The position numbers and the translations under genes are program-made. A stretch of DNA of 43,235 nt from Clostridia bacterium (lineage in GTDB: Bacteria; Bacillota; Clostridia; Christensenellales; Aristaeellaceae): the NCBI GenBank assembly GCA_017470945.1, contig JAFUXH010000154.1, positions 1 to 43,235 on the forward strand, read 5' to 3'. This document shows positions 41,397 to 43,235 of this stretch, in pieces. Position 1 is the stretch's first letter, and every line of letters starts with the position of its first letter. The notes beneath the pieces are model-generated. The model saw only the letters and a list, made by a program, of their open reading frames with translations, was not told the DNA's origin and did not search any database.

Positions 41397-42026
41397 TCAG
41401 CCGCCCAGGCCCTCCCACAGCCGCGTTTCCATTTCTTCAAACATTGTGTAGGATTTCTGTTCCGGCGCAAACGTTGCTTCCCACAGCGGCTCCTCCTGAT
41501 CGCCCCACAGCCTCACGGTGATCCGGTCCAGCCGGGTGGTGGTGATGAACACCTGTTCATCCTCCTCCCACCGGGTGGTGGTTTCTTCCTGGGAAACCAT
41601 GGTGCGCACGGGGATCAGATCGCTGCCCTGCCAGCGGAAGATGCGGGCCTCGAACAGCGCCCCGGCCATGCCGTTGCTGCCCCGGGAGTACACGTAGCCC
41701 CGCTCATCCAGGGCATAATTGATGATCGCGCTGCCATCCGGCCGGTTGGCCCGCACATATTCCCCGCCGTTCCAGACGAAGAACTCATAAAAGGCGTTGG
41801 ACGCGCCCAGGATGGTCAGGATCACGATATCCTCGACGCCGTCGAAATTGACGTCCTGAAATTCGATCCAGGGCTCCTCCAGGGGGGATGCGAAGTACAG
41901 GCTTTGGCCGTTGGGCGCTTCGTAGCGGTGGATGTACCCCTCCTCCTGGGTGACGCCCACGATGTCCGCCCGGGCGGCGGGCAGCAACAAAAGCAGCGCG
42001 GTCATGATCAACAGGATTCGTTTCAC
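41397..42026 (-). CDS. Secreted FG-GAP/VCBS-like protein
   Basis: A 209-residue exported protein of unknown function. It starts with GTG (AAGGAGG 9 bases upstream), and residues 1-20 form a signal peptide ending AARA. The segment FQDVNFDGVEDIVIL is the calcium-binding D-x-N-x-D-G-x-x-D loop of FG-GAP/VCBS-like repeats. The middle is beta-rich (EYVRANRPDGSAIINYALD as a landmark). It probably heads a two-gene unit with 40193-41356. A weak TATAAT stands upstream but its -35 box is not convincing. Confidence 0.75.
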   Translation of the reverse strand: MKRILLIMTALLLLLPAARADIVGVTQEEGYIHRYEAPNGQSLYFASPLEEPWIEFQDVNFDGVEDIVILTILGASNAFYEFFVWNGGEYVRANRPDGSAIINYALDERGYVYSRGSNGMAGALFEARIFRWQGSDLIPVRTMVSQEETTTRWEEDEQVFITTTRLDRITVRLWGDQEEPLWEATFAPEQKSYTMFEEMETRLWEGLGG

Positions 42027-42132: not shown

Positions 42133-42501
42133 TCACGATTCGTCGCTCGTTTCCATTCCCGCCCGCAGCAGGCCGATGGCCCGCTTTTCCATCCGGGATA
42201 CGTAGGAGCGGGATATGCCCAGCACGGCGGCCACCTCGTGTTGGGGGTGCATCGTGCCGTCCAGCAGGCCGTAGCGCATTTCGATCACGGTGCGCTCCTT
42301 CCGGGGCAATTGACGGATCAGCCGCCGGGCCTTTTCCAGGGAGATGCGCTTCACCACCTCATCCTCCACCTGGCCCGGCGCGGTGCCCAGGATATCCTGG
42401 AAGGAAATATCGTTGCCCTCCTTGTCCGTGCCCACCGGGTCGGACAGGGATACGTCCCCCCGGCGCTTTTTGGATGATCGCAGCAGCATCAGGATTTCAT
42501 T
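42133..42501 (-). CDS. sigK: Sigma-K, C-terminal half only (spoIIIC-like)
   Basis: The C-terminal half of the late mother-cell sigma factor. It begins in frame at Asn-Glu-Ile-Leu-Met (NEILMLLRSSKKRRGDVSLS), exactly the ENEILM point of Bacillus SigK, and continues through DPVGTDKEGNDISFQDILG to region 4 with LGISRSYVSRMEKRA. These signatures fit SigK and not SigE. About 122 residues are present; regions 1-2 and the promoter are missing. In this state it has no legitimate start codon (the ATG at 42489 has no ribosome site). The upstream sequence is the end of a serine recombinase, so this looks like the split sigK of a skin-type element, restored only by excision. Confidence 0.93.
   Translation of the reverse strand, partial: NEILMLLRSSKKRRGDVSLSDPVGTDKEGNDISFQDILGTAPGQVEDEVVKRISLEKARRLIRQLPRKERTVIEMRYGLLDGTMHPQHEVAAVLGISRSYVSRMEKRAIGLLRAGMETSDES
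42495..42501. other. Putative recombination core of the sigK element
   Basis: On the minus strand, AATGAAA lies where sigK coding sequence begins and where the recombinase stops; its first five bases equal the AATGA core reported for the Bacillus sigK rearrangement. The recombinase TGA stop (42497-42499) is inside it. The partner core lies beyond the window. Confidence 0.65.
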
Positions 42502-43234
42502 TGCTATCCTCTCCCCAGGGCGTCATAGGCGTCTCCAGGTGCATATCCTCCTCGTTTTCGCTGTAATCCACGTCCAAATAGGGGGTCAAATCGTCGTTTT
42601 CGTCCTCTTCGGCGGGATTTTCCGTCCACTTACGCAACGTATCGGGATATTGGATTTCACCATCCCCTGCCCCGAAGAGCACCACATGGGCATTGACGCC
42701 ATCCCAGATCACCCGGCGGATCACCGTTTTCAGCGCCGCCCGCTGCTGTTCAATGGACATGTCCTGGAGGCCCTCCTTGAACCCCGCCAGCAGATCGCTC
42801 AGCAGGTCAAATTCGCTGTCGGTCAGCTCGTGCTGGTTGAGCAGGCTTTCCAGCTCCTGGATGCGATGCTCGATGGCCTTGCTTTCCTGGCTTAGCGCCT
42901 CCAGCCGCTTTGCCACCAGTTCTTTGACGTCTCCGGCTTCCATGTTCGCCAGCGTATCCACCAGGCCGGCGATTTTTTTGTCCGTCTCGGCCTTCTCCTG
43001 CTGCAAAGTCGCTTTCTGCTGCTCGTATTCCGTGCGGTCGCCGGTGAAAAAGCTGCGGCTGCGGGAAAGCTGCTCCATGAATTCCCCCGCGTCCTCGTCC
43101 AGATGCTTGACCCTATCCACGATCATGGCGTCCAGGATGTTGCCGTTTACGTTTTTGTTGTTGCACAGCGCCTTCTGGCTGCGTTCCTTCAATTTGCAGA
43201 CGTAGGTATATACGGGCTTGCCCTCCGGCGTTAC
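42497..43234 (-). CDS. Large serine recombinase, C-terminal part (SpoIVCA-like)
   Basis: The 3' end (245 codons) of a large serine recombinase; the resolvase catalytic domain is off the window. The visible part starts inside the zinc beta-ribbon domain: VYTYVCKLKERSQKALCNNK, with the second cysteine pair as in phage integrases, then N-V-N-G-N-I-L-D-A-M. A long coiled coil follows (heptads around EQQKATLQQEKAETDKKIAGL), then LKTVIRRVIWDGVNAHVVLFG and an acidic tail. The stop codon overlaps the start of the sigK fragment. Position and family together suggest that this enzyme excises the element during sporulation. Confidence 0.93.
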   Translation of the reverse strand, partial: VTPEGKPVYTYVCKLKERSQKALCNNKNVNGNILDAMIVDRVKHLDEDAGEFMEQLSRSRSFFTGDRTEYEQQKATLQQEKAETDKKIAGLVDTLANMEAGDVKELVAKRLEALSQESKAIEHRIQELESLLNQHELTDSEFDLLSDLLAGFKEGLQDMSIEQQRAALKTVIRRVIWDGVNAHVVLFGAGDGEIQYPDTLRKWTENPAEEDENDDLTPYLDVDYSENEEDMHLETPMTPWGEDSK

Positions 43235-43235
43235 G

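Follow-up and report, generated by a model that had tools for sequence, protein, structure and literature searches.

The end of this stretch of DNA raises a question: why does sigK, a sporulation sigma factor gene, begin in the middle of its protein and directly behind a large serine recombinase (LSR), and can such a gene still be read? The stretch, hereafter the window, is the whole of contig C134 (43,235 bases) from a Clostridia bacterium, whose draft genome (G000) consists of 165 contigs and is 95.13% complete and 8.36% contaminated. We consider it quite probable that the window ends in a skin-type sigK-intervening element, in which the LSR placed a mobile element between the codons for ...Cys-Ile-Glu-Asn and Glu-Ile-Leu-Met..., and that the element follows the mechanism proposed below. 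At the level of sequence, this reading is carried by complementary sigK halves, an AAATG core, a near-palindromic predicted attP, the in-frame restoration of SigK, three complete elements, and the spread of the LSR.

The C-terminal half of sigK occupies positions 42133..42501 on the minus strand, from the Asn codon of ...IEN/EILM... to the stop. Its frame (42501-42133) begins NEILMLLRSSKKRRGDVSLSDPVG..., and it is best matched in NCBIfam by two SigK models (E 5.2e-41 and 1.5e-40), which are aligned from positions 111 and 109; the N-terminal half is therefore absent from the window frame. The sequence is 86.6% identical to the C-terminal half of the uninterrupted SigK of a same-genus genome (G015). 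Directly before it, and in the same orientation, lie the last 245 codons and the stop of the LSR (42497..43234, minus strand), in a frame that is still open where it runs off the contig end. By itself, this tail has only weak Pfam matches, with a zinc ribbon at E 7.6e-4 that fails the cut-off. In G013, another same-genus genome, an LSR with Resolvase, Recombinase, and Zn-ribbon domains shares 81% identity with the tail over 245 residues (379-623 of the G013 enzyme). An earlier note on this DNA had read the frame as SigK behind the 3′ end of a co-oriented large serine recombinase, and the alignment to SigK models from ~110 on and the identity to the G013 LSR bear this out. Since the sigK half and the LSR are both on the minus strand, the missing part lies beyond window base 43235.

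The attR copy of the AAATG core lies at 42498..42502 (minus strand), and a second copy is found at G000:C101:19508-19512. The LSR stop, TGA (42497..42499, minus strand), consists of the TG of the core and the first A after it, which comes from the sigK half: the LSR ends in ...GAG GAT AGC AAA TGA, and the sigK half reads AAT GAA ATC from the same bases in another frame. GGATAGC (42503..42509, minus strand) is the right arm of a predicted attP inverted repeat, whose partner, GCTATCC, is on contig C101. Site symmetry was computed for four attP sites of the genus, and the predicted attP of G000 is symmetric about its centre at 19 of 25 positions.

A SigK model search of the genome located the N-terminal half on C101. 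It ends in ...SAYAARCIEN and then departs from the SigK sequence at the core, stopping at the codon that matches the start of the C-terminal half in the window. At the junction, C101 reads TGCATTGAAAATG followed by CTATCC, and the window reads GATAGCAAATG followed by AAATCC, with AAATG common to both. The joined G000 SigK has 229 residues, is in frame, and is 86.3% identical to the SigK of G015. The earlier note had expected an N-terminal half and a second core to the right of the window; both exist in the genome, the core copy at the C101 junction, while their position to the right is our placement of contigs that are not joined. It had also named a full-length sigK elsewhere as contrary evidence, and the model search of the draft genome (95% complete) found no second, complete sigK in G000. 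The one further long SigK-like frame, on contig C156, was rejected as sigK, since it is only 41% identical to SigK and falls below the SigK cut-off; it looks like a SigE-type paralogue that is also present in relatives. G000 further encodes SpoIVA (E 1.8e-102) and SpoIIID, the latter at E 3.1e-25 and short of the curated cut-off.

Could the bin be mixed, with C101 and C134 derived from two organisms? We regard such an assembly artifact as very improbable, because each half was found once, both are ~87% identical to the same relative, and the ends of the G000 element match the ends of complete elements. The contamination of 8.36% and an upstream flank of C101 that is unlike that of G015 would fit it. 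Here, as in the two later places where contrary points are gathered, we list what weighs against our reading: the halves are on separate contigs of a contaminated draft genome, the C101 flank differs from that of G015 (the flank is unconserved among the genus members compared), and the catalytic (N-terminal) half of the window LSR was not found in the G000 assembly. Upstream synteny fails as proof that the two contigs belong together, because the C101 upstream flank matched no compared sigK flank, except partly that of G027, away from the G027 sigK. The recombinases on C13, C66, C137, and C39 were discarded as the missing LSR part, being distant (24-34% over parts). A serine recombinase frame at G000:C5:27329-27700 (L020) runs off the C5 end, breaks off early at its other end, and has no match to the sigK-element LSR. 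Downstream of the sigK half, the window contains a chromosomal gene of 209 aa (41397..42026, minus strand), which serves as a flank marker; its 48% identical counterpart in G015 adjoins the uninterrupted sigK directly downstream.

The comparison with close relatives, suggested in the earlier note, covered 29 genomes of the same genus, G000 included. sigK is without insertion in 19 of them (in G021 and G025 it ends early). In G003, G013, and G024, both sigK halves are on one contig with a whole element between them and the same junctions; the complete elements measure ~7.9 kb (G024), 12.4 kb (G013), and 25.6 kb (G003). Together with the matching N-terminal half on C101 of G000, where the halves are on two contigs, these genomes confirm that a sigK-intervening element occurs in this lineage. 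A chance juxtaposition of LSR and sigK was dismissed, as the N-terminal half ends at the same codon and three same-genus genomes have the complete arrangement. Six genomes are undecided: G011 has the C-terminal half only, G009 an N-half fragment, and G019 a partial C-terminal half, and no SigK was recognised in G008, G016, and G026. Between G003 and G024, the LSR is 93.6% and SigK 82.0% identical.

Other features of sigK in these genomes are recorded here in their own right. Contig C211 of G011 (L088), with the C-terminal half only, has its edge exactly at the AAATG core, a hint of the fork expected in an assembly graph if integrated and excised forms coexist. In G003, the sigK N-terminal half with the left end of the element is found on two contigs, C50 (L093) and C61 (L084), suggesting strain variants or a duplicated assembly. 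G018 has two sigK copies, one of them uninterrupted and the other carrying an internal TAA (G018:C10:22348-23022, L086; G018:C117, L092). SigK C-termini are damaged by a frame change near the end in G003:C61 (L085) and by early stops in G021 and G025, and late sporulation may be decaying in these three genomes. In G040, from another family of the same order, a SigK C-terminal half on C335 (L087) is preceded by an LSR only ~40% identical to the present one, which could represent an earlier offshoot of this arrangement.

How far does the arrangement reach beyond the genus? We examined the best 80 of 391 LSR relatives found in named genomes (named loci), three of which are the same-genus G013, G003, and G024 themselves (L116, L117, and L153), and 391 evenly sampled class genomes, among which 24 hold an LSR at E up to 1e-120 (class-sample loci). 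A SigK junction, defined as NEIxM within 400 bp of the LSR end, is present in 71 of the 80 named loci, and a separate tblastn count also gave 71; among the other nine, L143 has the N-terminal half in opposite orientation and eight have no such junction. The class-sample loci have the junction in 19 of 24 cases, an inverted arrangement in two (L264 and L275), and neither in three, and on a stricter count the C-terminal half adjoins the LSR in 17 of 24. In L143 (LSR end ~11752, N half 12013-11732), L264, and L275, i.e., 3 of 104 loci, the LSR 3′ end lies by the N-terminal half in opposite orientation, as if the element had been inserted the other way round.

According to the record titles, the hosts are mostly rumen and gut bacteria, including the isolates Gemmiger formicilis An812, Tyzzerella sp. 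An114, Acutalibacter sp. 1XD8-33, and a Holdemania. Horizontal spread was assessed with 68 usable loci of 74 (L139, L140, L167, L169, L173, and L179 were dropped). Among 170 LSR pairs more than 80% identical, which are not independent of one another, identity of the SigK half is lower by 20 points or more in 145 and as high or higher in one. The LSRs of the Holdemania locus L122 (Erysipelotrichia) and the Lachnospiraceae locus L123 (Clostridia) are 98.0% identical, and their SigK halves are 47.4% identical. Near-identical LSRs in hosts with such divergent SigK halves indicate that the element moves horizontally. On these comparisons, the G000 element belongs to a family that is widespread and moves horizontally, and is not a lone relic.

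The elements differ in their cargo. In each of the three complete ones, the LSR occupies the right end, is oriented like sigK, and contains the Resolvase, Recombinase, and Zn-ribbon domains. A MobA/MobL relaxase lies within the known ends of the G024 element (start missing) and of the G003 element (a 491-codon open frame in which an ordinary start codon was not identified); none was seen in the G013 element by reading its open reading frames (ORFs). Further cargo includes a DUF4143 ATPase in G024; in G013 and G003, reading of the ORFs alone suggested an oligopeptide-transporter operon and restriction-like genes, respectively. The assembled parts of the G000 element are its left end (a helix-turn-helix frame and the end of a small-protein gene) and its right end (the LSR tail); the middle is unassembled. 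Among the named loci, a relaxase match is present in the fetched DNA of 12 of 80, and a NikA-like protein lies within the known ends of the L159 element. RepA_N, MobA/MobL, and TnpV in L122 and MobA/MobL in L125 are likely inside the element, whose left ends are outside the fetched DNA. No phage structural genes were recognised by reading the ORFs of the G024, G013, and G003 elements, only part of which was scanned with family models, and plasmid and phage collections contained no LSR match of at least 60% identity (46% and 40% for the best matches listed).

An insertion that has died in place, leaving sigK permanently broken and late sporulation lost or being lost, appears improbable to us. 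The damaged sigK genes of the genus (the frame change in G003, the early stops in G021 and G025, and the second G018 copy with its internal stop) would be explained by it, as would the G013 element, which has lost most of the extension described below and in which reading revealed no relaxase. However, both halves of the G000 gene are open and join in frame, and the genome encodes SpoIIID and SpoIVA. The LSR, the core, and the small factor considered below are retained even in small elements such as L142 (3.6 kb), as expected if excision is still needed.

If the element is a living one, where does the recombinase gene itself end? In 51 of the 80 named and 14 of the 24 class-sample loci, the LSR stop is a TGA formed by the core and sigK. 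The frame runs on into sigK DNA in 12 named and two class-sample loci, mainly owing to an AAACGA core, and it stops before the core in eight and three, respectively (the stop-position script miscalls L125 and L163, both of which have the stop in the core). The integrated LSR ends in ...EDSK. In the predicted circle, its stop is gone (AAA TGC TAT ...), and the frame past the core has 202 (G000), 207 (G003), and 207 (G024) residues. This extension carries helix-turn-helix domains (scanned in G000 and G024), and the Resolvase, Recombinase, and Zn-ribbon domains of the LSR all lie before attP. The extension was found in 7 of the 391 class genomes, G000 included, and follows the sigK N-terminal half in all seven; its alignment starts at residue 1 in three of them and at residue 12-24 in four.

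We examined 15 extension-bearing loci, picked for a matching extension, in which L153 and G024 are one record and were counted once. In 14 of them, no stop interrupts the frame in the first 46 codons after the core, where 19 and 20 stops fall in the two alternative frames, and the phase of the LSR frame at the core matches the extension. The LSR end and the extension end are on different contigs of one genome in G000, L197/L253, and L198/L252. In 14 of the 15 loci, the frame runs unbroken through the predicted attP, which places this site inside the LSR frame. Over codons 10-46, with five chosen pairs pooled, the ratio of nonsynonymous to synonymous differences (pN/pS) is 0.54 (p 0.0009) for the extension frame, compared with 0.98 and 0.91 for the two alternatives. 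These codons lie beyond an attP half-site of ~25 bases.

We propose the following mechanism. The LSR would insert a circle at attB in sigK, and integration would shorten the LSR, which would retain its catalytic part while sigK DNA supplies the stop. In the mother cell, with sigma-E and SpoIIID active, a small factor would be made; the short LSR and this factor would then recombine attL with attR, the circle would leave, and sigK would become readable. In the circle, the LSR frame would continue into the helix-turn-helix extension, so that insertion and excision would toggle the enzyme between two lengths. The short form, together with the small factor, would serve developmental excision, and the long form would belong to the free, mobile state, acting in integration or self-control and perhaps in the choice of direction. 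In engineered proteins, a factor fused to a serine integrase is described as able to change its direction (PMC5737554). Elements without the extension keep the LSR, the core and, where seen, the factor, and the short form therefore seems to be enough for excision. On balance, we lean towards an integrase gene that contains attP and is rewritten at each integration and excision, yielding a short form in sigK with a stop from the host gene and a long helix-turn-helix fusion when free. The host gene and the enzyme would then both reflect one state of the DNA. This would be a built-in switch between developmental excision and a mobile mode, spreading between gut Clostridia and Erysipelotrichia via one sigK codon.

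Alternatively, the extension could be an ordinary regulator gene in its own right, which the sigK promoter would serve when the element is integrated, with its in-frame position incidental. We hold this to be possible but rather unlikely. It would accord with the location of the extension directly downstream of the sigK N-terminal half, with an ATG at codon 31 that could start it in G000, G003, G024, and G013, and with the many elements that have no extension. The position of a start codon is, however, not conserved: L202 has none in its first 46 codons, and L158 and L197 have only one, at codon 37. Also against it stand the lack of stops between the core and the extension in 14 of 15 loci, the purifying selection in codons 10-46, and the matching LSR phase at the core in those 14 loci.

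The two-form LSR has its own contrary points. No natural fused LSR-extension frame was found in the 391 class genomes, in 398 genomes of the phylum, or in plasmids and phages, which would also suit a separate regulator. Apart from G000, the phylum genomes yielded just two matches, which cover helix-turn-helix parts (residues 60-195 and 80-185). The extension stands at attL in only 6 of the 15 named loci with the N-terminal half in the fetched DNA. Frames end early, 94-100 residues past the core in G013, L119, L130, and L158 and 163 in L118, and L129, L142, L155, and L185 have only 14-51 residues past the core, without homology (in L185, another part of the element has a helix-turn-helix match). 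The core at attL is altered in L158 and L200, and L199, the fifteenth locus left out of the 14, stops after 17 codons and also changes frame. For codons 10-30 alone, pN/pS is 0.61 (p 0.03), and in the pair G003/G024 it is lower in another frame (0.30 against 0.54). Finally, excision, its timing, and the circle are what we infer from assembled sequence. A viral contig (L203) was considered as an uninterrupted fused gene and rejected, as its weak 52-residue match was not returned on repeat at E 1e-3; none of 46 viral loci contains a fused LSR-extension gene.

What could supply the small factor of the proposed excision? A conserved protein of ~70 residues, with the consensus PINxIVHYPKTEEGxRELAxRVAxVHADMVxQxIKKLNCPSxQKxQLLDAVI, is encoded in 28 of the 80 named loci, on the strand opposite the LSR in 27 of the 28 and in several right beside attL. 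It has no Pfam or NCBIfam match, and PHROGs returned two weak matches of unknown function (E 0.026 and 0.036). Upstream of its gene, the pattern ATA-N15..17-CATA is present in 16 of 28 loci and, after thinning, in 11 of 20, against a mean of 0.96 and a maximum of 4 in shuffled sequences; the matching promoter-like sites lie at -89 to -102 from one common codon. GGACAA stands between the boxes at several sites and resembles what we take to be the SpoIIID box. The spacing of the ATA...CATA pattern fits the published sigma-E logo, in which the -35 is given at positions 1-8 and the -10 at positions 21-30 (PMC517825). Two points stand on the contrary side: the promoter pattern (spacing 15-17) was chosen after the aligned sequences had been seen, and a first sigma-E pattern (spacing 12-15) occurred in 1 of 12 upstream regions, a level that 31 of 300 shuffled sets reached as well. 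We regard the ~70-residue protein as a candidate directionality factor. In C. difficile, the directionality factor CD1234 is described as a 72-residue protein under sigma-E and SpoIIID (PMC5025042).

The sigK elements described so far are mostly phages or phage remnants in a few model sporeformers. A close-knit LSR family at one sigK codon in many gut and rumen bacteria, including isolates, makes the interdependence of mobile elements and development testable, as well as how often it arises. If the two-form LSR is true, a serine integrase would alter its own protein according to the state of its DNA, for which the nearest description found is that of archaeal tyrosine integrases. A compact attachment site of known target with a naturally coupled switch would also be of interest to builders of recombinase tools. 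In the open-access literature, we found no description of this gut family, of mobilizable elements in sigK, or of attP inside a bacterial integrase gene. The kind of element is known, being skin-type by anatomy; its mobility, its breadth, and the self-split recombinase are new.

The skin element of C. difficile is located inside sigK, with the serine recombinase CD1231 directly upstream of the 3′ half (PMC5025042). Likened by description, it agrees with the present elements in the sigK site and the LSR position and has a small factor of 72 aa, for which the ~70-residue protein is the candidate here, whereas several elements here have mobilization genes, the LSR moves between classes, and attP is predicted inside the LSR frame. 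The earlier note had treated the placement of the LSR beside the C-terminal half as a trait of this lineage; the LSR is indeed co-oriented there, but the placement is not peculiar to the lineage, as C. difficile has it likewise. The C. difficile SigK is described as having no pro-sequence (PMC5025042), whereas the SigK here has a leader before its conserved part that may be one. The skin of B. subtilis is reported as a 48 kb prophage-like element with a core of five bases (PMC13141910), and spoIVCA as lying behind the 5′ sigK half (PMC10747680). It resembles the present elements in interrupting sigK and in its five-base core, whereas the LSR here is usually by the C-terminal half, with its end at the N-terminal half in only 3 of 104 loci. 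The core letters of B. subtilis skin are AATGA.

Phages have been described in sigK of Alicyclobacillus and C. perfringens (PMC5025042, PMC13141910), and the spread of sigK elements over Bacilli and Clostridia has already been stated (PMC5595907). The gin element in gerE of Bacillus cereus ATCC 10987 is given as a non-phage element with a serine recombinase and an extra factor (PMC5595907). It is alike in that such an element interrupts a sporulation gene; it differs in its target gene and its three recombinases, and is not known to have a self-split recombinase. The suicidal (SSV1-type) integrases of archaea are alike in that integration splits the integrase's own gene. However, those are tyrosine integrases, and the split is thought to be inactivating, whereas the serine recombinase here would keep its catalytic part and gain a stop from the host gene. 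In mycobacteriophage BPs, attP lies within the repressor gene. Immunity in BPs is described as dependent on the attachment site (PMC4557955). The gene concerned is thus the repressor in BPs, whereas here it is the integrase itself.
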